Assembly: GCA_009377605.1 (NCBI GenBank)
Contig: WHTT01000020.1
Coordinates: 27,394 to 85,462, forward strand
Source of the DNA: Luteitalea sp.
GTDB taxonomy: Bacteria; Acidobacteriota; Vicinamibacteria; Vicinamibacterales; Vicinamibacteraceae
Length of the DNA stretch: 58,069 nucleotides
Direction of reading: 5' to 3'
The notes under the pieces are model-generated. The model was given only the letters and a program-made list of their open reading frames with translations, did no database searches and was not told the origin of the DNA. A program made the translations under genes and the position numbers. Positions 6,233-17,987 of this stretch are shown here, piece after piece (within the stretch, counting starts at the first letter, position 1; every line of letters starts with the position of its first letter).

Positions 6233-7597
6233 CTAATCGACGCGATGCTTGGAAAGGTAGTAGCTGAGCGCCCGCTGACTGATGCCCATGAGCTCAGCGG
6301 CGTCCTTCTTGACGCCGCGCGATGCCTCGAGCGCGCGCGTGAGCGTCTCACGCTCGACCCAGTCGAGATTTTGGTGGAGGTCGCTCGATGGTAGGACGGT
6401 CGACGGCGAGCCGAGCGACGCCGGCCAAGAGATGGCGTCTGCCGTGATCGTGGGTGTCGCAGACAGCACAACGGCGCGCTCGATGGCGTTCTCGAGCTCG
6501 CGGATATTGCCTGGCCAGTCGTAGGCCGAGAGCCGATCGAGCGCCGCTTGATCGAGTCGCTCGATGCGCCGTCCCGCGCGCTTTGCATGCTTGCGCACGA
6601 AGTGTTCCGCCAGCACCGGGATGTCTTCTCGACGCTCACGGAGCGGTGGAATACGAATCGGGATGACCGTCAGCCGATAATACAAATCCTCGAGAAAACG
6701 GCCCTCGCGGCCAAGCGCCGCGAGGTCTCGATTCGTCGCGGCAATCACGCGGACGTCGACCCGCTGGCTACGCTCGCTGCCGAGCGGCTCGAACTCGCGC
6801 TCTTGCAAGACCCGCAGGAGCTTGGCCTGCACCGTGAGGCTGATCATCCCAATCTCGTCGAGAAACAGCGTGCCGCCATCTGCCAGGGCGAAGCGTCCCT
6901 TCTTGTTCGAGATCGCCCCCGTGAACGCTCCACGCACGTGGCCGAAGAGCTCGGATTCGAGCAGTGTTTCCGGGAGTGCCGCGCAGTTGACCTTGATGAG
7001 CGGCATGTGACGCTCGGCGCTGTGCGCGTGGATGGCGCGTGCCACCAGCTCCTTTCCCGTGCCCGTCTCCCCCATGATGAAGACCGTGCTCTTCGATCCG
7101 GCGACGAGCTCCGCCTGGCGTATCACCTCCTGCATCGCGCGGCTCCGTCCGACGATGCCGTAGTGATTGAACTCTTCGTCGCGCTCCGACAACAGATATC
7201 GGTGCTCTGTGCGAAGGCGTTGATGCTCCAAGGCGCGACCGACGACAACGATGAGCTCGTCGACCTCGAACGGCTTCTGCAAGTAGTCGAACGCGCCGAG
7301 CTTCATGGCGGCTATGGCGCCTTCCACGGTTGCGTGTGCCGTGATCATGACGACCTGGGGCCGATCGCTGTCTGCAACGGTCGCCGAGAGCTCGCGAATC
7401 AACTCCAGCCCCGTCATCCCTGGCATCAAGTTGTCGACGACCAGGACATCGAAGAGCCGCTGACCGAGCAGTTGTCGCGCCTCCGCAGCGCTGCCCGCGC
7501 AGAGCACCTCGTGGCCATCGTCACCAAGGGCCGACGCGAGCAACGTTCGAATCTTCACCTCGTCATCGACGATGAGAACGGAGCCACGAACCGTCAT
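6233..7597 (-). CDS. NtrC-family sigma-54 response regulator
   Basis: This is a 454-residue protein with three domains. The receiver domain (1-120) has D11-D12, phosphoacceptor D55 (VVDNLMPG) and K in YLQKPF. The AAA+ domain (about 149-380) has Walker A GETGTGKE, the GAFTGA loop that contacts sigma-54, and Walker B GGTLFLDEIG. The C-terminus has a Fis-type helix-turn-helix (DAAELMGISQRALSYYLSKH). It activates sigma-54 promoters when phosphorylated by the kinase encoded 16 bp upstream. The best candidate target is the promoter at 6098-6113 just downstream. The stimulus is unknown. Confidence 0.95.
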   Translation of the reverse strand: MTVRGSVLIVDDEVKIRTLLASALGDDGHEVLCAGSAAEARQLLGQRLFDVLVVDNLMPGMTGLELIRELSATVADSDRPQVVMITAHATVEGAIAAMKLGAFDYLQKPFEVDELIVVVGRALEHQRLRTEHRYLLSERDEEFNHYGIVGRSRAMQEVIRQAELVAGSKSTVFIMGETGTGKELVARAIHAHSAERHMPLIKVNCAALPETLLESELFGHVRGAFTGAISNKKGRFALADGGTLFLDEIGMISLTVQAKLLRVLQEREFEPLGSERSQRVDVRVIAATNRDLAALGREGRFLEDLYYRLTVIPIRIPPLRERREDIPVLAEHFVRKHAKRAGRRIERLDQAALDRLSAYDWPGNIRELENAIERAVVLSATPTITADAISWPASLGSPSTVLPSSDLHQNLDWVERETLTRALEASRGVKKDAAELMGISQRALSYYLSKHRVD

Positions 7598-7613
7598 GGA
7601 TTAGGGGCCCCTC

Positions 7614-9599
7614 CTAGGCCCGCGAGTCGACGGGCAGCGCGATCGTCACAGTGGTACCCTCGCCCTGCCGGCTGGCCAGCTCGATCGTGCCGCCGAGACC
7701 TTCGACGATGTGACGTGCAATTGCAAGGCCAAGTCCGGAGCCCGTCCGGCGGGTTGTGAAGTACGGCTCGAAGACGCGCGGGAGGTCTTCCTCGGCGATG
7801 CCAGTCCCGCGATCGGCAACGACGACACGCACCCTGCTCGGCCGGTCCTGCCGCACCTCCAACGTGATCGCCATCGCGTTCAGCTCGGCGCCCTTGTCTT
7901 CCGGTGGTGTGGGCTTCGTTGTAACGGGGTGAGTGACCCGTGCCTCGTCGGCGCGCCGCGTGAGGACGGCCTCGCGCGCGTTCGCCAGGATGTTCACGAG
8001 CGCCGCGCGCAACCGTTCGGCGTCGGTGACGATCTCCAGCGGCTCGGGTGGCGCCGCGACGACAACCTTGACGTCGTGGCCCCGTGTGCTGGCCTCGGCC
8101 GCGCCTCGGCAGACTGTGCTGAGGTCGACGGTCTCGTAGCTGAATCGCAGGGGCCGCGCGTAATCGAGCACCTCGCCAACGAGCCGATCCAGGCGATTGA
8201 CCTCCTCCTCGATGTCTGCAAGTCGGGGCAACCACTCCGGGATCTCGGATGGGCTGAGCTCCTCCTGCGGTGGCAGCACGACAGCGGACTCGTCTCGCCG
8301 AAGCGCGGAGCGCGAAGGCGGAAGCGGCGAAGCCGCGGCGCCGGACTTGTCTCGCCGAAGCGCCGTAGGCGCGAAGGCGGAGCGCTTGAGCGTGTGCAGT
8401 GACGCCTTGATGATCATCAGAGGATTGCGGATCTCATGGGCCAGGACTGTCGAGAACCGGCCGAGCGTCGAGAGCCGCTCCCTGAGCGCCGCCTCTCGCT
8501 GGAACCGCGCGAGTGACGAGGCGAGCGACTCGAACGTCCGGGCGAGCAAGCGGGCATCCTCGTCTTCCCACCAACCGCTGGACGGTGGCGAGCTGGCCCG
8601 GGTCAAATCACCGGTCACCGCAACGTCGCGCATGGTTGCCGTGATGGCCGCGAGTGGTCGAGTGATCGTCCGTGCCACCAGGTAGCTGAGCAGCGTTGCG
8701 CCGACCACGGCGAGGAGCGCTGTGACCACGAGCGCGGTGTGCACCGTGCGCAGCGGGCGCAAGCGCTCGGTGCGCGACTGGAGCACCATGGCAAGCGGCA
8801 CCGGATCAGCACCGCCGTCGCCAGCAGTCGCCGACGCGCGATTCAGCGGCAGCTCCCGCGTAACGGCAACGTAGTCCTCCCCCTCGAGCGTCACCCGAGC
8901 CACCGAGCTCTTCTCGGAACGGCCGCGGGATCGCCGGAGCGCCTCCAGCAGCGCGGGCGGCGTGACATCCAGCGTGGCCGCATAGACGCGGGTGGGCGAC
9001 GCCATGACGATGTCCGCTTGCGTCAGCTGCTTGAACCGCTTGGCCAGCGCTTCATCGAGGCTGAAGCCGACGCTGAGCGTTCCGAGAATCTCCGGTACGG
9101 GCTCTATCCAAATCGGCGTCGAGACGACCACCTGAAGAACGCCATTTCCTCGAGGCCAGAACGAGCTGCTCGTGCGGCCGGCGAGCGCCGCCCTGATTGC
9201 CGGCAGCTCGCGGATCGCCTCGGCACCTGCCCCGGGATCTCCGATCGTGGCCAAGGGCATTCCGGCGCGATTCGTCACGAGGAACAGATCGGCGCCGAGT
9301 TGCTGAGGATACGCCTCGACGATGGGTAGCACCGTGGGCGGATCGTTCGTGTCGACAGCAGCCTTGAGCTTCGGCAGGTCGGCGATGAGGCGGGCGTCCC
9401 GATCGAGAGCATCGAAGTGCTCGCGGTGATACCCGTCGACGAGGGTCGCGGCCTCCTCCAAGCCTCGCTCCAGCTCGGCCTCGGCCTGTGCGGTCACGAC
9501 CGCATTGACCACGAGCATCGCCGCACCGATCGCCATCAGAGCCAGGAGGGCGCTCGCCAGAAAGATACGGTTGCTGAGCGAGGAGAGGAACCGAGTCAT
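7614..9599 (-). CDS. sensor histidine kinase with an in-frame repeat insertion in the DHp domain
   Basis: This is a 661-residue protein. TM1 is about 10-33, with a large periplasmic sensor region (34-288, Cache-like by layout). TM2 is about 289-308 and is followed by HAMP. The H-box is LAHEIRNPL with H388, the N-box is about 535-545, the G1 box is DRGTG (596-600) and the G2 box is GSGLGLAI (620 on). Residues about 406-460, between the two DHp helices, are an extra Pro/Ser/Arg-rich segment. Residues about 404-436 of it are translated from two direct copies of the family C palindrome. The start overlaps the stop of the cupredoxin gene (ATGA), and the cognate regulator follows. A long loop at the DHp tip may be tolerated, but its effect on signalling is unknown. 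Confidence 0.93.
   Translation of the reverse strand: MTRFLSSLSNRIFLASALLALMAIGAAMLVVNAVVTAQAEAELERGLEEAATLVDGYHREHFDALDRDARLIADLPKLKAAVDTNDPPTVLPIVEAYPQQLGADLFLVTNRAGMPLATIGDPGAGAEAIRELPAIRAALAGRTSSSFWPRGNGVLQVVVSTPIWIEPVPEILGTLSVGFSLDEALAKRFKQLTQADIVMASPTRVYAATLDVTPPALLEALRRSRGRSEKSSVARVTLEGEDYVAVTRELPLNRASATAGDGGADPVPLAMVLQSRTERLRPLRTVHTALVVTALLAVVGATLLSYLVARTITRPLAAITATMRDVAVTGDLTRASSPPSSGWWEDEDARLLARTFESLASSLARFQREAALRERLSTLGRFSTVLAHEIRNPLMIIKASLHTLKRSAFAPTALRRDKSGAAASPLPPSRSALRRDESAVVLPPQEELSPSEIPEWLPRLADIEEEVNRLDRLVGEVLDYARPLRFSYETVDLSTVCRGAAEASTRGHDVKVVVAAPPEPLEIVTDAERLRAALVNILANAREAVLTRRADEARVTHPVTTKPTPPEDKGAELNAMAITLEVRQDRPSRVRVVVADRGTGIAEEDLPRVFEPYFTTRRTGSGLGLAIARHIVEGLGGTIELASRQGEGTTVTIALPVDSRA
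8286..8389. repeat. family C GC-rich palindromes, two direct copies inside a coding region
   Basis: Two copies share TCTCGCCGAAGCGC, then a short centre, then GCGCGAAGGCGGA (cores 8293-8325 and 8350-8383). They lie 57 bp (19 codons) apart, so the frame is kept. They encode the similar peptides SALRRDESA and TALRRDKSG in the kinase. A related block in the opposite orientation is at 9599-9715. Confidence 0.8.
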
Positions 9600-10381
9600 C
9601 CGCCTTCGCGCTCCGCGCTTCCGCCTGCGCGCTCCGCGCTTCGGCGGACAGGTCGGCGGCCAAGTCCGCCTTCGCTTCTTTTCGGCGAGGCAAGCCGCTT
9701 CGGCGAGGCAAGCTCGTGGTCGGTCTCCTTCTCGACGAGCGCGAAGTCAACAGTGACATCGCCGCTCTTATGCACCGTGACCGTTCGCATCGTCGGAGGG
9801 AGCGTCTCGTGCCAGACGGCGAGCGTGTACGTGCCGGGCGGGACGTTCTCGAGGCGGTAGTTGCCATCCTCGTCTGTCACCGCGAAGTATCGATGCGCAA
9901 AGACGAGGATGAATGCGCTCATGTGAGAGTGGATGTCACAAAACACCCTGACAATTCCGGGACGCTCGAAGCGGACCGCGCGCGATCGACCCCGCGCATA
10001 ACGTCCCAGGTCGAAGCTCCTGATGCGCGAGAGCGAGAAGACGTTGTGAAAGAACGGGTCGTTGTTGGGAAAGTCGACGAGCGACCCGGTGCGGATGGCG
10101 AGCACGTGTGGAACGAAGCGCTCGCCCCGCTGATCCATCCGATAGCGGCGTTGCTCGTTGTCCTCGAACGCGCCACGCGGCGCCCGCTCCAAGTAGACGA
10201 CGCTGACTGGTCCTGACTCCGCCTCCGGTGCATGAGCTGGCGGCTGCATCAAGCTAGGTCGGTGCTCGACTGGATCGCGCGGCGGCATGGTGACCCGCCC
10301 GCGGATGACACCATTGGCCAGGGCGATGCCCGGCAGGGCGCCCAGGAGCATCACGGCGAGCAAAGAGCGGCTCAGAACCAA
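9596..10381 (-). CDS. periplasmic cupredoxin / carboxypeptidase-regulatory domain protein
   Basis: The TTG at 10381 lies 8 bases after GGAG and gives 261 residues with a signal peptide ending ALANG. An ATG at 10351 is a shorter alternative. The plastocyanin-like domain has type I copper ligands H112 and C148-xx-H151-xx-M154 (FCDIHSHM). A carboxypeptidase-regulatory-like beta sandwich follows (about 165-215, DEDGNYRLENVPPGTY). The last 39 residues or so are Arg/Ser/Gly-rich and come from the family C repeat block. The gene overlaps the barrel gene by 10 bp and the kinase gene by 4 bp, so it is tightly coupled. Likely role: periplasmic electron carrier or copper-binding protein. Confidence 0.82.
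   Translation of the reverse strand: MVLSRSLLAVMLLGALPGIALANGVIRGRVTMPPRDPVEHRPSLMQPPAHAPEAESGPVSVVYLERAPRGAFEDNEQRRYRMDQRGERFVPHVLAIRTGSLVDFPNNDPFFHNVFSLSRIRSFDLGRYARGRSRAVRFERPGIVRVFCDIHSHMSAFILVFAHRYFAVTDEDGNYRLENVPPGTYTLAVWHETLPPTMRTVTVHKSGDVTVDFALVEKETDHELASPKRLASPKRSEGGLGRRPVRRSAERAGGSAEREGG
9599..9715. repeat. family C repeat block at the 3' end of the cupredoxin gene
   Basis: It contains CGCCTTCGCGCTCCGCGCTT-type units (inverse orientation to 8286-8389) and a direct repeat of TTCGGCGAGGCAAGC. It is translated as a low-complexity tail with the doubled peptide LASPKR, and its edge forms the stop/start overlap with the kinase gene. Confidence 0.75.
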
Positions 10382-11646
10382 TAGGAGAGCTCCATCGCCA
10401 CGAATCGACCGCGATCGAACCGCGGCGTGTCGCGCCAGTTGTGCTGATACGCAAGCTTGATGGTCGCATTGCGGCGCAGGCGAAAACCGCCACCTACCTC
10501 GAGCCGCGTCACATCCGCCTCCCAGGGGCGATACGCGCCGGCGCCGTCCGCTACGTTCGAGAACGTGAGACCGTCGAGACGGGCCGCCGCGTAGACACGC
10601 GGCGTGATCTTCACCCGTCCCTCGCCCATGACGGACAGGGCCCGCAATGGACGGTCGATTCGAGGCGCCGCGACGGCGGGCACCTCCCAGGAGCTGACTA
10701 TGGTCTCGGTCCGAAACAGGAAGCGCGACCAGGACCACTCGGCATCGAGCCCGAGAGCGCGCTGCGCGAACGTCTCTTGTCTGAGCTCCGCCGGCAAGCG
10801 CTCGACCGCGGCCTCGTCGACGAACGTTCCGCGGGCGGCGGAGAGACCCAGGACGAGCGCAGGCGTCGGCGTGATGGCAACGCGACCGGCAAGCTGATTG
10901 CCGTCGTTGTTGTCGCGCACGAGCGGATGCGACAACGTGCCACGCGTGAGCGCCGCGCGCATATCGAGCCAGCGAGACCGCCACCGCACCTGGACACCGG
11001 TATCCAGCCGTGTGCTCGCCACGACCGGGACACCGGCGGCTGGACGCAGATCGCCAACCGGGTAGCTCACGCGCCATCCACGGCCCTGGTTGGGAAACAG
11101 GTCCGTCGTCGAGCCGGGAAGCGAATCGTCACGTAACGCGAGAAGATACTGATAGGCGAGCGGTCGTCCTATCAGCGGGTTCGACGCGGCGTAGTCTCCG
11201 GCGGCGAAGGCGCCAAAGACGCGAGGAATTCTGCCGGCTTCGATATCGAGCGCGCGGCTCTTCCATGGGCGAACCCGCACGAAGAGCGCGTAGGGCAGCA
11301 GCACGTGCCGGTCGCCGCCGCCTTGGAGCCTGCCAATCGCGGTACGGTCCTCGACGTTTGCCAGCACCGAGATCCGGTCGTTTATCCGGCCTTCTGCAAG
11401 GAGGCCGATGGTCAAGAGACGGAGCAGGTTGTGATTGTAGTCCGACGCGTTGAAATAGCCCTCATCGAGCGGCGCGATGGTAACCCGAAGCTCGCCGCTC
11501 ACGAGAACGCGGCCATCGAAGAGCGTGACCGGCTCGGAGGGAAGCTGCGCGAAAGAGGCAGTAGCGCTGAGGAGCAGGAGACAGACAGCGAGGGTGGCCT
11601 CCATCGAGAGCCGGTGCCGGTGCGCGATCGCCTCCCCGCGTTGCAC
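10372..11646 (-). CDS. outer-membrane beta-barrel (porin-like) protein
   Basis: This is a 424-residue protein starting with GTG at 11646. The N-region is HRHR-rich, followed by a hydrophobic signal segment ending ASFAQ. The rest shows alternating strands, frequent Arg/Trp/Tyr, a turn with ASNPLIGRPLAYQYLL, and a C-terminal aromatic residue (MELSYWF), all typical of outer-membrane barrels. I do not recognise a specific family. No strong SD is visible at the GTG. It is the first gene of a coupled set (barrel, cupredoxin, kinase, regulator), so it probably supplies an outer-membrane pore or scaffold for that redox or sensing system. Confidence 0.7.
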   Translation of the reverse strand: MQRGEAIAHRHRLSMEATLAVCLLLLSATASFAQLPSEPVTLFDGRVLVSGELRVTIAPLDEGYFNASDYNHNLLRLLTIGLLAEGRINDRISVLANVEDRTAIGRLQGGGDRHVLLPYALFVRVRPWKSRALDIEAGRIPRVFGAFAAGDYAASNPLIGRPLAYQYLLALRDDSLPGSTTDLFPNQGRGWRVSYPVGDLRPAAGVPVVASTRLDTGVQVRWRSRWLDMRAALTRGTLSHPLVRDNNDGNQLAGRVAITPTPALVLGLSAARGTFVDEAAVERLPAELRQETFAQRALGLDAEWSWSRFLFRTETIVSSWEVPAVAAPRIDRPLRALSVMGEGRVKITPRVYAAARLDGLTFSNVADGAGAYRPWEADVTRLEVGGGFRLRRNATIKLAYQHNWRDTPRFDRGRFVAMELSYWF

Positions 11647-11682: not shown

Positions 11683-13536
11683 TCACAGCGGTCGCGAGAG
11701 CCGAATCCCGGCCTGTCGCAGCTCACACGCGGTCGAAACGATATGGGGCCATGCACACAGGAGCTCACCAAATCGTCTTATCAGGTCGCGGGTGATGGTC
11801 AACACCTCCCCCCGGTTTCGATGGCCCGCTGTTAGCTCGAACGGCACGATCGCGTCGGGGTGCTGAAGCGCCTCGCGAGCCCCCTGCGCGCAGGCTGTGA
11901 TATCTGCAGCGCAGTGCGCCGGCTGCGCTCCGTAAAGGCGCTGTACCCAGTCGAGCGTGGCGAAGAACAGACTCGCCTGGGCGGCCAGCTGCACTCGCAA
12001 GAGCTTCTCCAGCTCGCTCAACGGCAGTGCTCCAACCTCCCGGAGGTGCGAGCCGAGTTGGTGCAGCCTCTTCGAGCAGGGGTGTCGGCCGGGCGATCGG
12101 CGGTGTGACAGGATCGAGAACATCAGAACATCGCTCAGCTGCCGGCGCGCAAACGGCGACTCGACACGAAGGCCGGCCGCGCGTGGAGGCGCGTCGTGCA
12201 GGAGGGCTAACGGGAGATGCGCAAAGACCGCTTCGTCTCGGCATGCGCTCAGCACAGCGCCGAAGACGCTATCTTCGTTGCGCCGTACTGGCATGAAGGC
12301 TGGTAACAGCAGGCGGTTGTCGAAGCCAAATGCCGTGCCCATGCAGTGAGCAGAGGCGCCCGCGGAGAGCGTCGGTGCCACGCGCAGCACTTCCCTGCTT
12401 TCGAGAGCCGTGCGGTAGGCGACGATGTCACCGAGCACGCGTGAGCGGGAAGGCTCGTGCAATCCCCACAAGAGCCCGGAATGCGTTGCCATTCCGGAAT
12501 CGCCGATCACGCCGGTGAAGCTCAGCATGACATGGCCGGATCCTGCTTCGAGCACGCGCACGTCGTCGGCCGATAATTGGCCCCAGTGCAACTGATTCGA
12601 TCCCAGCCGGTCTCGAACCAGCGACGACAATGAAAGCCCCAACGCCATCTCATGAGCGGCTGCGATGTCGACCTCGGCCGGAGGCGTGAAGGCGAGGGCG
12701 CTGCTCCTGTCCCCGAAAGACCAGAGATCTGTTGGATCCCTCCTACCGTACAGGGACAAACCGTTCCGCGAGCTCGGATGGGGCGTTGGCCGGCAGATCG
12801 TGTCATCGTCTGCGCTGAGCACGAGATCGCCAAGCGTATCGAGCAGAAGCGCGTTTCGATTCGCACCGATGGCGCAACCGCACCCTTGGGGATCCCCAAG
12901 CGCGAAATCCAGGAGCTCGCCCGGGATATCCGCTCGTGCAGCCAAGGCCGCACCATACGCGGCCCGTTCGACCGGCCCTAGGTATCGAACCTGTACGTTC
13001 ATCGCGCGGCCAGCGCTACGGAGGACCTCTTGATTGCGCAGGTAGGCCCCACGGTTGAGCGAGCCGTCCACCACAACGGCCTCGACTGCTCGAGCGTGCG
13101 CTCTCGCATTCTCGATGTAGCTCGTCACAGAGCGACGCAAGGCGTCCGGCCGCTCGCATGTGATCCACCCAAAGGTGCGAATCGAGCCGGTCGTGGAGGT
13201 GGACTGTGGCGCCGTGGCCAGACGACAGCGCTCTACAAATGCAGCCTCCGGCTCGAGCAAGCCGACGCGACAGAGCTCTCGACAGAAGCCTGTTGGGTCG
13301 ATCGCCTCGAGCGCCGTTCCGCGGAACACACGCTGAAACGCTGCTGCGTGGGTCTCCAGCGGCGCAAAGGACTGGCGGGACTGAAGCGCTGCTGCTATCT
13401 CGGGCCGAACGACCACTGCGACGTGGTCCTGCTCGCGGACGGCGAGCTCCAGACCATCGCCGGCGGGAAAGCGCTGGATGTTGACCGCCCGGTACTTTCC
13501 ATCGGACGGCAGGCCGTTATCGAGGGCACACGGCAC
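11683..13536 (-). CDS. large protein with PqqD-like N-terminus and GT-A-like DDD motif; possible peptide-modifying enzyme
   Basis: Not a family I can name. The GTG at 13536 has AAGGAG 6 bases upstream; a TTG at 13557 is less likely. Residues about 10-110 look like a PqqD-type winged helix (VRPEIAAAL, SFAPLETHAAAF, LCRVGLLE), the fold used as a RiPP recognition element. The middle holds GANRNALLLDTLGDLVL followed by D243-D244-D245-T, like the metal-binding DxD of GT-A glycosyltransferases. The C-terminal half is about 300 residues without a motif I recognise. It begins 22 bases after the ABC permease stop, in the cluster with a hydrophobic peptide gene. Glycosyltransferase or other maturase activity is inference. 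Confidence 0.55.
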   Translation of the reverse strand: MPCALDNGLPSDGKYRAVNIQRFPAGDGLELAVREQDHVAVVVRPEIAAALQSRQSFAPLETHAAAFQRVFRGTALEAIDPTGFCRELCRVGLLEPEAAFVERCRLATAPQSTSTTGSIRTFGWITCERPDALRRSVTSYIENARAHARAVEAVVVDGSLNRGAYLRNQEVLRSAGRAMNVQVRYLGPVERAAYGAALAARADIPGELLDFALGDPQGCGCAIGANRNALLLDTLGDLVLSADDDTICRPTPHPSSRNGLSLYGRRDPTDLWSFGDRSSALAFTPPAEVDIAAAHEMALGLSLSSLVRDRLGSNQLHWGQLSADDVRVLEAGSGHVMLSFTGVIGDSGMATHSGLLWGLHEPSRSRVLGDIVAYRTALESREVLRVAPTLSAGASAHCMGTAFGFDNRLLLPAFMPVRRNEDSVFGAVLSACRDEAVFAHLPLALLHDAPPRAAGLRVESPFARRQLSDVLMFSILSHRRSPGRHPCSKRLHQLGSHLREVGALPLSELEKLLRVQLAAQASLFFATLDWVQRLYGAQPAHCAADITACAQGAREALQHPDAIVPFELTAGHRNRGEVLTITRDLIRRFGELLCAWPHIVSTACELRQAGIRLSRPL

Positions 13537-13557
13537 GTCAGACTCCTTCACGTGCAA

Positions 13558-14247
13558 CTACTCGAGGAGCTCGCTGGTATCCTGGGTTGGCAGCCAGCGC
13601 GTCAGGTACAGCCACAAGGAGACGTTGACCAACAACTCCGCCGCCAGCCACGCGGGGACCGTCGTCGGCGCCCGCACCGACTCCACGAGGTACTCGGCGC
13701 CGGCTGGCACGCGCCAGCCGAGGGCGATCATGGCGGCACTGGGGACGAGCAGGATGAGAAAGGGCAGCACCCCGCCCAGCCTGGTACCGAAGCGCAAGCG
13801 GGTCAGGATGCTCAGGTTCCCAAACGTCACCAGACCGCCGACGAGGACTGGGCAGAAGGCGAGATTTCGCGGCTCCAGCAAGGAAGGGAGCAAGAGCAGG
13901 ATCGCCGCCGTGCCTGTCACCATCTGTACCGCCGAAGAGAGAAGGAGCTTCGACAGAATGATCGCTCCGTCGGACACGGGCAACGTTCGTAACAGCGCCA
14001 GCGTGCCCTTCATGCGCTCCGTCTCGATGAGCCACACGGAGGATATGAGCCCAGCGTAGAGCACCAGCGGCATGAAGAGCGCGCTCACCAAGGCCCGAAG
14101 CCGCGTATCGGGAAAGAGCCATGGCGCGAGAGACAGCAGCGACGCATAGACGGCGAAGTTGGCCGTGAGCAACAGCACGATCGGGCGGCCATGAAGCCAC
14201 ACGTCTTTAATCACCAGTGCCTTGACCTGGTGCCATTCGTTTGTCAT
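13558..14247 (-). CDS. ABC transporter permease, ABC-2 like
   Basis: This is a 229-residue protein with about six hydrophobic segments (IVLLLTANFAVYASLL; ALFMPLVLYAGLISSVWLIE; AVQMVTGTAAILLLLPSL; and others). The phrase WLIETERMKGTLALLRTLPVS is typical of ABC-2-type permeases. The start at 14247 has GAGGAA just upstream and lies 41 bp inside the ATPase gene. It should form the membrane part of an exporter with the ATPase at 14207-15166. Its place in the cluster suggests export of, or immunity to, the small peptide encoded at 16641-16901. Confidence 0.8.
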   Translation of the reverse strand: MTNEWHQVKALVIKDVWLHGRPIVLLLTANFAVYASLLSLAPWLFPDTRLRALVSALFMPLVLYAGLISSVWLIETERMKGTLALLRTLPVSDGAIILSKLLLSSAVQMVTGTAAILLLLPSLLEPRNLAFCPVLVGGLVTFGNLSILTRLRFGTRLGGVLPFLILLVPSAAMIALGWRVPAGAEYLVESVRAPTTVPAWLAAELLVNVSLWLYLTRWLPTQDTSELLE

Positions 14248-15166
14248 CGGTTCCTCGCGCGAAGGCAAGATACACGTCTTCCAAGGATGCCCGCCTGACG
14301 TTGGTGGAGGGCACTGGCATATCGAGTATCGGCACAGGGCCGCGCGTAAGCAGGTGTGGGCCACGGCGGTCCACCCAGGCGCGGAGCAGCTGGTGCGAAG
14401 GAGGTATCTGCATCTGTCCGTCTGGCGGCAATGTCCACGCGGCGAGTGAGCCGAGCGCGTCGTAGCCGCTCGTGAACACGATGCGCCCTTCGCGGATGAT
14501 GATCAGGTCGGTGGCCAGGGCCTCGACGTCCTGGAGCACGTGTGAAGCAACGAGAATTGCGGCGTCCGCATCGGCAACGATGGCCTGCAGGAACTCTCGA
14601 AGCTCGAATCGACTCTCGATGTCGATGCCGTTCATCGGCTCGTCGAGCAGAAGGAACCGCGGCTGATGGGCGAGCGCCAGGATGAGCGCCAACTTGACCC
14701 GCATGCCTTTGGAGAAGTGGCGCACGCGCTTTCGACGGTCGATTCGAAAGAGGTCGAGCCAATGTTCGGCAAGCGCCGGATCCCATCGCGTGAAGAGCCG
14801 CGCGGCGAGACGGACGTGCTGTGCCGCGGATAATGGCTCGTAGAGCACTGGGAGTTCTCGAACGAAGCCAACCAGCTCCCGATACGAGTAATCGGTCCAT
14901 GCCACGCGACGCGAGCCGACAAGGATCTCACCGGCCGAGACAGCGGACTGTTGCGCCAGGCAAGAGAGCAGCGTGGTCTTCCCCGCGCCGTTGACTCCCA
15001 ACAGCCCGTAGATGTGTCCGAGCCGAACATCCAGGTCGACTGGGCCCAATTGGAACCCTGGAAACCGCTTCACGAGGCTGTGTGCACGAAGCGCGGCGCC
15101 CTCCCCTGGTGCTTCGGTATGTGGCCACGCGTCTGGTGCGAATATCTTGGAGCCCTGGAGCCGCAT
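14207..15166 (-). CDS. ABC transporter ATP-binding protein
   Basis: This is a 319-residue protein. Walker A is GVNGAGKTT, the signature is in the form HFSKGMRVKLAL, Walker B is FLLLDEPMNGID, and the switch His is in VASHVLQDVE. The layout is of the DrrA/BcrA type, with a C-terminal extension of about 70 residues. The ATG at 15166 is preceded by AAGGAGG with a 3-nt gap, a strong site. The 3' end overlaps the permease gene and the 5' end follows the SpoIIM-like gene by 16 bp. It energises export, or removal from the membrane, of the peptide product of the cluster (inference from context). Confidence 0.93.
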   Translation of the reverse strand: MRLQGSKIFAPDAWPHTEAPGEGAALRAHSLVKRFPGFQLGPVDLDVRLGHIYGLLGVNGAGKTTLLSCLAQQSAVSAGEILVGSRRVAWTDYSYRELVGFVRELPVLYEPLSAAQHVRLAARLFTRWDPALAEHWLDLFRIDRRKRVRHFSKGMRVKLALILALAHQPRFLLLDEPMNGIDIESRFELREFLQAIVADADAAILVASHVLQDVEALATDLIIIREGRIVFTSGYDALGSLAAWTLPPDGQMQIPPSHQLLRAWVDRRGPHLLTRGPVPILDMPVPSTNVRRASLEDVYLAFARGTDDKRMAPGQGTGD

Positions 15167-15182
15167 GTGCCTCCTTCGAGCG

Positions 15183-15797
15183 TCACCCGACGCTGCGCAG
15201 ATACATCCCAAAGGCCTCGACCGACGCCCCGGCGAGCACCAAACCGCACGCACGAATCGTGAAGACGAGGACGTGTGGAGGCCCGGTCGCAAGCGGGATC
15301 TCGAACAGGACGCCGAAACAGCGGATCCCCATCTGTATGCCCGCCGCTGCGCCATGCACGAGGCCGGCGTACTCGAGAGGCACGTAGAGGAGCATCAGCG
15401 CGGCGTCTCCCGGCGAGACAGACGCCAGTGCGGAAAGATCCCAGCCCAGACGGAACGCATTGAACGCGAGGATGAGCGCGGTCGGTGCACCAAATAGGAG
15501 AGCGCCAAGGAGCAGCGCCGCCACCACACGGAGGTTCGTCGCGGCGATGAGCGCGGCGTTCCACGGCAGGCGGTCCAGCGGCCGGTTGGCGGGCCATACG
15601 GGCAGGGGACCGCTCGTCTCACCCCGAAGCCAGGCGACCAAGGCCCCGACAATGCTCGTCGCAACGACGAGGTACACGCAGAGACGCAAGCACGTCGTGC
15701 CTCGTGCCGATGGATTGCGGCCGATGCCGGCCCGATCCTGCGCGGGGTCAGGTCTCGGCGACGAACCAGGATGTTTGTTCCACGAGGACGCAGCCAT
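15183..15797 (-). CDS. SpoIIM/DUF95-like membrane protein
   Basis: This is a 204-residue protein with about four helices after a soluble N-terminus. It has the family landmarks: NLRVVAALLLGALLFG, TALILAFNAFRLG, LEYAGLVHGAAAG and a final helix ending ASVEAF. These match the conserved Asn, the N-G-F-x-L-G-like segment and the E-x-x-x-x-x-x-AGAAG-like segment of SpoIIM proteins. In known circular bacteriocin loci (AS-48 type) a DUF95 protein takes part in production or immunity. Here it lies between a Yip1-like protein and an ABC ATPase. The family call is from remembered motifs and should be tested by a profile search. Confidence 0.68.
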   Translation of the reverse strand: MAASSWNKHPGSSPRPDPAQDRAGIGRNPSARGTTCLRLCVYLVVATSIVGALVAWLRGETSGPLPVWPANRPLDRLPWNAALIAATNLRVVAALLLGALLFGAPTALILAFNAFRLGWDLSALASVSPGDAALMLLYVPLEYAGLVHGAAAGIQMGIRCFGVLFEIPLATGPPHVLVFTIRACGLVLAGASVEAFGMYLRSVG

Positions 15798-15806
15798 GAC
15801 CGTTGC

Positions 15807-16478
15807 TCAATCCAGAAGGAGCGGGATCAGCATGCCGCCGAGAAAGAAGATGCCGTAGAGCAACGCGGCGACCAGTGCTGTTGTTGCCGCGCGCAGCCCG
15901 CTGAGGCTGCGATAGCTCAGTGCCAGAAGGGCACAGAGCCACACTTGCGACAGTTGGCTCACCGCGGTGGCCGTGGCAAACATTGGACTGCTCGCGAAGC
16001 GGGCCCGCAGCTGGCCGAGATTCTCGGCGCGGCTGAGGTCCAACCCGTGAAGCGTGCGGCCATCGAAGGCGCTCGCGGCAATGAATAGGAGCACGAGAGC
16101 CGGGATCTGGGACACGAAGGCGCGGCCGGCGAGCTCGAGCTGCTTGCGCGCGTCGCCCCGATCCACGAACAGGACATCGAGGCTCACGAGGAACGCTGTC
16201 GACGCGAGCCATAGCAAAGGGAAGGCCAATGCGCTCGCCACCGCGGTGCTGTACAACGTCGACGTCAGCAGGAACGGCGGCACGCCGGAATCGCGAACGG
16301 CCGCCAGGACGACCGGCTCTAGGTGTTTGGCCATCACGAGCTCGAAGCCGAGATAGATTGCCGCGCACGTGAACGGTGCGATTGCACCAGCACGCCAGTT
16401 GGGATCCGTTGGGCGGCACGTCGCAAAGAACCGCGACGGCTCCCAGAGCAGCAGCGACGATTGGTCGAAGAAGCGCAT
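15807..16478 (-). CDS. Yip1-like multispanning membrane protein
   Basis: This is a 223-residue protein with about five hydrophobic helices. The early motif WEPSRFFATCRP and the pattern of helices separated by short loops resemble bacterial Yip1 proteins. The start is put at the ATG at 16478 (MRFFDQSSLLLW). The frame extends upstream, but that part is translated from a family D palindrome, and no SD is visible at either position. It is the gene directly after the small peptide gene. Its role is unknown; by position it could act in immunity, membrane handling or maturation of the peptide. Confidence 0.7.
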   Translation of the reverse strand: MRFFDQSSLLLWEPSRFFATCRPTDPNWRAGAIAPFTCAAIYLGFELVMAKHLEPVVLAAVRDSGVPPFLLTSTLYSTAVASALAFPLLWLASTAFLVSLDVLFVDRGDARKQLELAGRAFVSQIPALVLLFIAASAFDGRTLHGLDLSRAENLGQLRARFASSPMFATATAVSQLSQVWLCALLALSYRSLSGLRAATTALVAALLYGIFFLGGMLIPLLLD

Positions 16479-16488
16479 GGTAGCAATC

Positions 16489-16549
16489 GGACGCCTCGGC
16501 GAGACGTCCCTACCTTCACCACGGTAGGGCGCGTTCGCCGAAACGCGCC
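16489..16549. repeat. family D double hairpin (copy D1)
   Basis: Two hairpins are joined by CCCTACC...GGTAGGG. The first has arms GGACG/CGTCC (16489-16509) around CTCGGCGAGA-like sequence; the second has arms GGCGCGTT (16528-16535) and AACGCGCC (16542-16549). Related copies are at 26813-26876 and 50641-50731. It sits between the peptide gene and the Yip1-like gene. Confidence 0.7.
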
Positions 16550-16567
16550 GGGCTAAAGCCAAGCCGG

Positions 16568-16608
16568 GCTGGCGGCGGTGTTCGCCACGGGCAAGTACCG
16601 CCGCCAGC
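16568..16608 (-). promoter_or_regulatory. intercistronic stem-loop behind the peptide gene
   Basis: Perfect 12-bp arms GCTGGCGGCGGT (16568-16579) and ACCGCCGCCAGC (16597-16608) have a 17-nt loop, 32 bp downstream of the peptide stop codon. There is no T-run, so it may act as an attenuator or RNA-stabilising hairpin that raises peptide expression above the downstream genes. Confidence 0.55.
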
Positions 16609-16640
16609 CGCGTTCCTGGCGTCCCTTCTTCACGAACCCG

Positions 16641-16901
16641 CTACGCCACGGCCGATGCAAGGCAGATGGCGGCGGCGGGCGGTGCGGCAAACGACGCAAT
16701 GCAGATCGCGCCGGTTGTCGCCTGGAAGGCGGCGGTCCAGGCCCAGCCGTACGGGTCTTCCGACGAAATGTAGCCAAGCAGGGCGCCGTGATCGGCCCCC
16801 ATCACCGGCGCTGGAGCGACGGCCTGGTGAACTGTGGGGGCGTTCACGCTGAGCGGCACTGCAAGAAGTGCACTAAGAGCGATTCGCTGGCGGGTTGTCA
16901 T
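16641..16901 (-). CDS. small hydrophobic two-cysteine peptide, candidate bacteriocin-like precursor
   Basis: This is an 86-residue protein. ATG at 16901 has AAGGAGG with a 4-nt gap, one of the best ribosome sites in the window. Residues 1-21 (MTTRQRIALSALLAVPLSVNA) look like a signal or leader; residues 22-39 are Pro/Ala-rich. The rest is hydrophobic: YISSEDPYGWAWTAAF, then TTGAIC67IASFAAPPAAAIC80LASAVA, with two cysteines 13 apart. There is no homologue I can name. Genes for a Yip1-like protein, a SpoIIM-like protein, an ABC transporter and a possible maturase follow on the same strand, which is why I read it as the product peptide. Alternative: a secreted small protein of unrelated function. 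Confidence 0.65.
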   Translation of the reverse strand: MTTRQRIALSALLAVPLSVNAPTVHQAVAPAPVMGADHGALLGYISSEDPYGWAWTAAFQATTGAICIASFAAPPAAAICLASAVA

Positions 16902-16997
16902 GGCTCCTCCTTGTTTCGTGGATGGTTTGCAACAGTGAGTTACACTGCGCGCCATAACCGCAACAGCGATGCCGTCCCGCGACGGAGCTATCGAGAT

Positions 16998-17017
16998 GTA
17001 CTAAGTACGAACGTACT
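16998..17017. promoter_or_regulatory. candidate operator upstream of the peptide gene
   Basis: Two overlapping dyads are present: GTACTAAGTAC (16998-17008) and AGTACGAACGTACT (17004-17017, perfect 6-bp arms). They lie 97-116 bp upstream of the peptide start, within the 275-bp region 16902-17176 that separates it from the VapC-type gene. I see no convincing -35/-10 pair there. Confidence 0.45.
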
Positions 17018-17176
17018 GAGGAGAGGAAACGGCCAAGAGAGGAGCGAGTACTTGCTTCCCTCCGAATGTCTGGTTGGGGCTGGTTTATCGACGCAGAGTA
17101 TCCTCAGGAGAGAACCAAGTTCCCTGACAGGAGCGCGAGGTGGCTACAGGTGATAGGGTGACAGCGTGACACCCGA

Positions 17177-17581
17177 TCACCAGACGGTCTCCAGCCCCGG
17201 GACGCGATGAAGATTAGGATCTCTGGTCAGGAGTGGATATCCAAGATCCAGGGCGGTCGCGGCAATGAGACGATCGCCACGTTCAGGAACGGCATACAGC
17301 TCTTCAGCACGAAGAACGACGTCGAGGGTAAGCTCGGCTGGAATGAACTGGTGTGTGCTGAAGAGGCGGTCGGCCCACGTGGCGAACCCGTCTGCGATAT
17401 CGATCCGACCGCGGTAGACGGCTTCGGCGATCTCCACCAGCGCGATGGTGGGCACATACACTGCTGCGCGTCCCGTGTCAGCTCGCTCCAGAACCTTGCG
17501 CGCCGCGGCGCCGATCTTACGGAATCGACGGAGGCCGTACCAGATCAGCGTGTGCGCATCGGTGACGGCAACGTGGATCAT
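17177..17581 (-). CDS. PIN-domain ribonuclease toxin, VapC type
   Basis: This is a 134-residue PIN domain with acidic active-site residues D8 (VAVTDAHTLIWY), E50 (ALVEIAEAVY) and two later Asp in ERGDRLIAATALDLGYPLLTRD. VapC toxins cleave specific RNAs, often initiator tRNA or rRNA, with Mg2+. The ATG overlaps the antitoxin stop (ATGA), the normal arrangement for a toxin-antitoxin pair. Confidence 0.9.
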   Translation of the reverse strand: MIHVAVTDAHTLIWYGLRRFRKIGAAARKVLERADTGRAAVYVPTIALVEIAEAVYRGRIDIADGFATWADRLFSTHQFIPAELTLDVVLRAEELYAVPERGDRLIAATALDLGYPLLTRDPNLHRVPGLETVW

Positions 17582-17901
17582 CCGGGCACGTTTCCGAGCT
17601 TCTTGTCGAACGCCCGTGCGGCCTCACGCTTGGCCTCGGCCAACGCCGCCTCGAGCTCTTCGTCGCTCAATGTCGTCTGAAGGCTACCGGCCAGCTTGAA
17701 CGGTTTGGTGACTCGCGCCTGGGCGCGCTCCACGGTCGCTTCCAAATACGCCAGGCGCGCTTCGCGCACGAGCGCCAATCGCTCCTTCTTCCCGCGGTGC
17801 TCCAGATAGACCACCGCATCGGGAGAGCTCGCCACATGGTCCGCAAGCTCGTACAATTTCGCCCGGGCTTTGGCAAGCGGCAGGACGACCTTCTTGGCCA
17901 T
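17578..17901 (-). CDS. antitoxin partner of the VapC-type toxin
   Basis: This is a 107-residue protein. The start at 17901 has AGGGAAG about 6 bases upstream. The N-terminal part (PLAKARAKLYELADHVASSPDAVVYLEHRGKK) matches the Phd/YefM-type DNA-binding and dimerisation fold, and the C-terminal part is charged and helical, fitting a toxin-neutralising tail. It overlaps the toxin gene by 4 bp. A doubled CGTACAT motif 17-36 bp upstream of its start is a likely autoregulatory site. Confidence 0.78.
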   Translation of the reverse strand: MAKKVVLPLAKARAKLYELADHVASSPDAVVYLEHRGKKERLALVREARLAYLEATVERAQARVTKPFKLAGSLQTTLSDEELEAALAEAKREAARAFDKKLGNVPG

Positions 17902-17917
17902 AGCAACTTCCCTTAAC

Positions 17918-17937
17918 CGTACATCTAAGACGTACAT
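17918..17937. promoter_or_regulatory. direct repeat of CGTACAT, candidate antitoxin operator
   Basis: CGTACAT occurs at 17918-17924 and 17931-17937, 13 bp apart, directly upstream of the antitoxin start. The CGTAC core is shared with the dyad upstream of the peptide gene (16998-17017). Confidence 0.45.
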
Positions 17938-17987
17938 ATCAAAGTTGGGTCGCCTCGTCAAACGAGCGCCGACGGCCTGTCAGACTC

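Follow-up and report, generated by a model that had tools for sequence, protein, structure and literature searches.

Six genes on one strand

The stretch of DNA considered here, 58,069 nucleotides of contig WHTT01000020.1 from the acidobacterium Luteitalea sp. (called the window below, at its full length), carries on its minus strand, between positions 11683 and 16901, six genes that are read in the same direction. The first encodes a peptide of 86 amino acids, and there follow genes for a Yip1-like protein, a SpoIIM-like (DUF95) protein, an ABC ATPase, an ABC-2 permease and a protein of 617 amino acids, the last five genes being tightly packed, with short gaps or overlaps. An initial annotation, made from the sequence alone, had seen in this region a candidate cluster for a new hydrophobic, bacteriocin-like peptide, extending from 11683 to 17020. 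The first of these limits stands and the second does not, since the coding part stops at 16901. The genes themselves are as described, a hydrophobic two-cysteine peptide with a strong Shine-Dalgarno (SD) sequence followed by five genes on the same strand, and all six are found in the same order, spread over two contig ends, in Luteitalea sp. isolate Dino_bin50 (the sister genome). Identity between the two genomes is 64% for the peptide, 57% for the Yip1-like protein, 58% for the SpoIIM-like protein and 73% for both the ATPase and the 617-residue protein. None of the five genomes searched from the neighbouring genus has the 617-residue protein, the peptide or the Yip1-like gene.

The peptide gene is not a product of chance, as judged by its substitutions (nonsynonymous rate dN 0.27 against synonymous rate dS 1.26 between window and sister genome) and by its being the only open reading frame (ORF) in the window that passes strict precursor-like criteria. 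The substitution rates are in line with those of the neighbouring genes, and the peptide is under purifying selection. Its ATG is preceded by ACAAGGAGGAGCC, with an AAGGAGG ribosome-binding site, and the same SD sequence (ACAAGGAGGACCC) lies ahead of the start of the orthologue in the sister genome. Both cysteines, at positions 67 and 80, are conserved there. The last 45 residues have a net charge of -2 and contain neither lysine nor arginine, and inspection of the leader by eye revealed no clear double-glycine processing site. Neither the peptide nor its relatives have a meaningful match in Pfam or NCBIfam, so that the possibility, admitted by the initial annotation, of assignment to an unrelated family such as a structural secreted protein has found nothing in its favour.

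The names given to the membrane proteins likewise hold. The Yip1-like and SpoIIM-like proteins of the window score below the curated Pfam cut-offs, the one at 23.2 bits (PF04893 requires 28.6), the other just short at 25.5 bits (PF01944 requires 26.9), and most of the homologues tested in relatives lie above them (4 of 4 for SpoIIM, 3 of 5 for Yip1). The ATPase is closest, among NCBIfam models, to ATPases of peptide export and lantibiotic protection, every score being below cut-off.

A peptide family and its partners across the order

The membrane genes of the cluster occur well beyond the genus, in company with a family of peptides that spans the order, as surveyed in 162 genomes. SpoIIM, ATPase, permease and Yip1 genes occur together in most of the loci fetched from other genera, and each of the 11 loci whose upstream sequence is intact has, directly upstream of SpoIIM, an ORF of 72 to 95 amino acids with a good ribosome-binding site. 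There is one further peptide-SpoIIM pair. A profile of 12 peptide sequences has matches in 14 genomes and a Yip1 profile in 16, the two coinciding in 12 and both lacking in 144 (Yip1 only, 4; peptide only, 2; Fisher p = 3.5e-13). Two of the four genomes with Yip1 alone have divergent peptides, recognised by eye, and in the other two the contig ends inside the module. The initial annotation had allowed for the peptide gene not being conserved beside these genes in relatives; the neighbourhoods in other Acidobacteriota show it to be so conserved. A match in G243, from a wider profile search, stands alone, with no cluster nearby, and was dismissed as noise. Searches with one or two peptide sequences returned only the sister genome and noise, the weak matches having neighbours without module genes, save for one unrelated ABC ATPase match.

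The relatives share a basic-hydrophobic leader with the consensus M-x-x-R-x-L-A-x-A-T-L-x-A-L-P and a hydrophobic tail, which in its best form reads W-x-Y-x-x-G-M-x-G-E-E-A-L-A-F-G...C-S-F-F-G-P-x-G-G-x-A-C-G-x-T-G-A-L. The register of the cysteines is kept: in the main peptide copy at each locus, and so in the window, the last occupies position -7 counted from the C-terminus, and the first is at -18 in relatives, at -20 in the window genus and farther away in G051 and G495. The tails of the main peptides carry a charge of -1 to -3 in most clusters, that of the window among them (0 in G051, +1 in G495). Three loci have arrays of four paralogues, in which leaders are 43-56% identical and tails only 20-24%. 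Two of these genomes have an extra pair of peptides at a second site (L152, L153), without the module. Over 867 kb of scanned strand, the strict criteria mentioned above pick out 18 ORFs, 17 of them inside these clusters, a figure that speaks to specificity and is no independent test, because the criteria were drawn from the peptides themselves.

Is the window peptide a member of this family? A profile from which the genus was left out gave a marginal answer (weighed below), and the case was instead tested by comparing profile with profile, shuffled columns serving as controls. The peptides of this genus align with the others over 79 of 86 columns (P 88.9%, E 2.4e-6) with a score of 35.5, against 10.4 when all columns are shuffled, 25.6 (maximum 32.2) for the tail and 21.5 (maximum 26.9) for the leader. 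Taken with gene order and cysteine register, this makes homology likely.

A putative tailoring enzyme in this genus

The 617-residue protein of the window matches nothing in Pfam or NCBIfam, PqqD included, nothing in a plasmid collection and no sequence in the PDB. Its predicted structure is more informative (AlphaFold, pLDDT 87), and bears out both the PqqD-like N-terminus and the glycosyltransferase fold (GT-A) that the initial annotation had guessed at. Residues 115-608 are modelled as a GT-A fold, closest to UAM (Z 22) and MtdL (Z 21), then GalNAc-T2 (Z 14) and others at 13-15. When residues 1-112 are modelled alone, nearly all top structural matches are recognition domains (RREs) of enzymes that make ribosomally synthesised, post-translationally modified peptides (RiPPs), namely those of ThcOx, CteB, TigE, TbiB1, PqqD, MibB, NisB, McbB, MccB and PbtF, and hhalign aligns this domain with PqqD over 61 of 67 columns (E 1.3e-4). 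D157, GANRN, DDD (243-245), RNED (419-422) and H447 are near-invariant in the alignment of homologues, a pattern expected of a GT-A enzyme. The models thus describe an RRE-like domain of PqqD type fused to a GT-A domain with its DDD motif intact. Two features of an RRE-dependent RiPP system are present, a predicted RRE-type winged-helix domain and a conserved precursor gene on the same strand, probably in the same operon.

Homologues occur in Planctomycetota, Spirochaetota, Deltaproteobacteria and other Acidobacteriota, and have weak matches to glycosyltransferase family 2 (1.2e-5). Short or partial Mod homologues, in G238, G349 and G421, were set aside. In a Planctomycetota metagenome-assembled genome (L042:1057-8068), two tandem proteins of this type stand beside an ABC exporter with a C39 peptidase and an HlyD protein. 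Elsewhere the neighbours include cysteine-rich or cysteine-ending proteins of secreted or lipoprotein type, candidates for the substrate (Table 1), and in L035 a 101-residue protein with a cysteine-rich end. From such neighbours the enzyme family appears to work, presumably by glycosylation, on secreted peptides or proteins in general.

Table 1. Features of the Luteitalea cluster and of related loci (L, locus; G, genome)
Feature	Position	Strand	Remarks
Peptide ribosome-binding site GAAACAAGGAGGAGCC	16902..16917	-	kept in sister genome
Precursor peptide gene, 86 aa	16641..16901	-	hydrophobic leader MTTRQRIALSALLAVPLSVNAP; Ala/Gly-rich hydrophobic tail, Cys at -20 and -7
162-bp gap, peptide to Yip1-like gene	16479..16640	-	GC-rich inverted repeats
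Yip1-like polytopic membrane protein (PF04893-like)	15807..16478	-	Pfam Yip1 6.9e-5
SpoIIM/DUF95-like membrane protein (PF01944-like)	15183..15797	-	Pfam 1.4e-5
ABC transporter ATPase	14207..15166	-	Pfam 6.9e-22
ABC-2 type permease	13558..14247	-	Pfam 5.5e-6, at cut-off; start ATG 14247 overlaps end of ATPase gene
617-aa RRE/GT-A fusion protein (modelled)	11683..13536	-	start GTG 13536, SD AAGGAG
Cys-rich or Cys-ending secreted/lipoprotein-type neighbours of 617-aa homologues	L033:10172-11238, L041:7254-7742, L043:7384-7905, L047:5743-6243, L045:9901-10194		candidate substrates
Four-paralogue peptide arrays	L106:3757-5069, L111:3652-4907, L113:4784-6006		
Peptide-SpoIIM-Yip1 set inside type IV pilus operon	L110:6248-7780 (G051), L115:7744-9255 (G495)		pilin, PilB-like genes
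406-aa protein	L104:5197-6417, L107:7839-9062		equivalents in L106, L108, L111, L112, L113

Two details of the cluster deserve mention. The inverted repeats after the peptide gene are possibly a partial terminator, an RNA-stability element or an element like a repetitive extragenic palindrome; an Rfam scan of the cluster region had no match. For the Yip1-like gene, ATG 16478 is a likelier start than TTG 16562. In one family of the order a conserved protein of 406 residues, with many invariant cysteines, is encoded directly after Yip1. It has no relative in Pfam or PDB, was not found in the window genus by a search that had no positive control, and is possibly an alternative maturation enzyme.

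As for the surroundings, a PIN-domain toxin-like gene with its probable antitoxin occupies 17177-17961, between the peptide gene and a GntR gene; the corresponding gap in the sister genome is shorter and has no match to either. On the other side, 6233-11607 encodes an outer-membrane-like protein, a small cupredoxin/plastocyanin-like protein (by eye), a sensor kinase and an NtrC-type regulator, and two of the five neighbouring-genus genomes have this outer-membrane/sensor-kinase operon without the peptide cluster. A tRNA-Arg (tcg) called by ARAGORN at 10358-10445, overlapping the end of the outer-membrane-like gene, is probably spurious.

A proposal, and what weighs against it

I propose that the six genes are probably, though far from certainly, an operon for the biosynthesis, export and self-protection of a ribosomally made, hydrophobic, secreted peptide of bacteriocin-like character. 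The peptide would start out as an inactive precursor, its leader hydrophobic and its tail rich in Ala and Gly and bearing the two cysteines. By analogy with circular bacteriocin clusters, I infer that the SpoIIM-like, Yip1-like and ABC/ABC-2 proteins make up the membrane component of the system, serving maturation, export and/or immunity. In this genus only, the RRE-like domain of the 617-residue enzyme would bind the leader and its GT-A domain would attach a sugar to Ser, Thr or Cys of the tail, ahead of export. The activity of the product is more likely antimicrobial than one of signalling.

Several observations weigh against this proposal. A profile built solely from the other peptides gives the peptide of the sister genome a weak score (E 0.006, first among 5716 ORFs) and does not recover that of the window, so that homology rests on the profile-profile comparison and on gene order. 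Taken one by one, the RRE matches are modest (Z 4-8). None of the other peptide clusters found contains the enzyme, which is read here as a tailoring enzyme specific to the genus, and its homologues elsewhere adjoin quite different secreted proteins; its substrate in the window is therefore assigned by position. Most relatives have what looks like a Sec-type leader, as judged by eye and with a hydropathy script, the only means used to call signal peptides, and such a leader would make an export ABC transporter unnecessary. In one family the cluster shows vertical descent and a fixed place on the chromosome, with ilvD/msrB on one side and dihydroorotase genes on the other (all named by eye), which is unusual for bacteriocins. 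Finally, no dedicated immunity gene, protease or cyclase was identified in the cluster.

Known systems and other explanations

Circular bacteriocin clusters are recognised by a precursor together with a DUF95/SpoIIM protein and an ATP-binding protein (PMC8534725), with Yip1 a common companion (PMC8659200), and the window cluster has this content. In AS-48 and cerecyclin (cycA/C/D plus YIP1), as here, a hydrophobic precursor goes with SpoIIM/DUF95, an ABC ATPase, an ABC-type membrane partner and often Yip1. One alternative is a true circular bacteriocin, whose tail would be cut off the leader and closed head to tail by a SpoIIM-containing membrane complex, the 617-residue protein being an accessory enzyme. 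Such clusters do exist outside the Bacillota, where nearly all are found, but they are rare (one Novosphingobium, five propionibacteria; PMC5695211), and this one has an acidobacterial host and an added RRE/GT-A enzyme. It is the peptide that makes the idea unlikely. Known circular bacteriocins lack cysteine pairs and nearly all have a polybasic region (PMC7132975), whereas here the pair is conserved, the tails of main peptides are mostly at -1 to -3 with no polybasic region in the window, no precursor or other family model matches, and the C-terminus is Ala or Leu rather than aromatic. The kinship with circular bacteriocins that the initial annotation drew holds for the gene content but finds no support in the peptide itself. 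Because of the cysteine pair and the missing polybasic region, I count the cluster as working like a circular bacteriocin system and not as a member of that class.

Yip1 is common in leaderless bacteriocin clusters too (PMC11580447), which resemble the present one in that a small hydrophobic peptide has Yip1 and ABC genes as neighbours; unlike them, the window cluster has a clear leader and SpoIIM. RRE-glycosyltransferase fusions have been flagged as bioinformatic candidates by RRE-Finder (PMC7470986) and by a structure-based update (PMC12710340), so the idea of such a fusion is not itself new. The likeness lies in an RRE-like domain joined to a glycosyltransferase near a candidate precursor; the difference is that here the glycosyltransferase part has no Pfam match and is accompanied by the SpoIIM/ABC/Yip1 set and a peptide family of the whole order.

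The nearest solved folds to residues 115-608 belong to GT75 (UAM/RGP and MtdL sugar mutases), with about 315 residues aligned at 12-13% identity, a likeness of fold only, and the protein has in addition its N-terminal RRE-like domain. Glycocins of the sublancin/SunS type are peptides glycosylated by a GT-A enzyme of their own cluster, as would be the case here. Unlike the window peptide, with two cysteines and a hydrophobic tail, they have four or five, and the architecture of the enzyme differs. Nor does the cluster have their C39-peptidase exporter or a clear double-glycine leader, its ABC ATPase and ABC-2 permease lacking a C39 domain.

A second explanation, to which I would give as little credence as to a circular product, is that the peptide does not kill, that it is a signalling or developmental peptide exported by the module and sensed by kin. 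The fixed location and vertical descent in one family fit this, as do two genomes whose clusters lie within a type IV pilus operon, and the several paralogues per genome. However, the ATPase and SpoIIM/Yip1 set is tied in the literature to bacteriocin immunity and maturation, and no sensor gene is consistently linked. It is very improbable that the small protein is instead a structural subunit of the envelope, pilus- or complex-associated and assembled by SpoIIM/Yip1/ABC with no natural product involved, as Sec-like leaders and the neighbours in G051 (whose pilus operon also has a prepilin peptidase and a VKOR/DsbA gene) might suggest. A structural subunit would not be expected to form sets of paralogues whose leaders are alike and whose tails differ strongly, a link to pilus genes is seen at only two loci, and this genus has an RRE-like maturation enzyme.

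What the cluster would mean

An exported, bacteriocin-like peptide remains the preferred reading, and a larger claim may tentatively be built on it. It is possible, if less than probable, that we have here a new class of ribosomal peptide of the Acidobacteriota, hydrophobic and with two cysteines, exported and tolerated by means of SpoIIM/ABC/Yip1 proteins of the circular bacteriocin type. In this genus the RRE/GT-A fusion would then add a sugar to it, and other members of the enzyme family, among them those of Planctomycetota and Spirochaetota, would act on secreted proteins of unrelated kinds. Literature searches, made in open-licence papers, turned up no account of such clusters from Acidobacteriota, nor of the fusion paired with this peptide and membrane set. 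New here are the peptide family, its steady partnership with SpoIIM within this acidobacterial order and the enzyme specific to the genus.

Gram-positive bacteria are the source of almost all circular and related hydrophobic bacteriocins known, and soil acidobacteria are abundant and little studied. A SpoIIM/ABC/Yip1 set kept with a different peptide would offer an independent system for testing how SpoIIM/DUF95 proteins act, and the RRE/GT-A fusion a testable route toward a leader-guided peptide glycosyltransferase.

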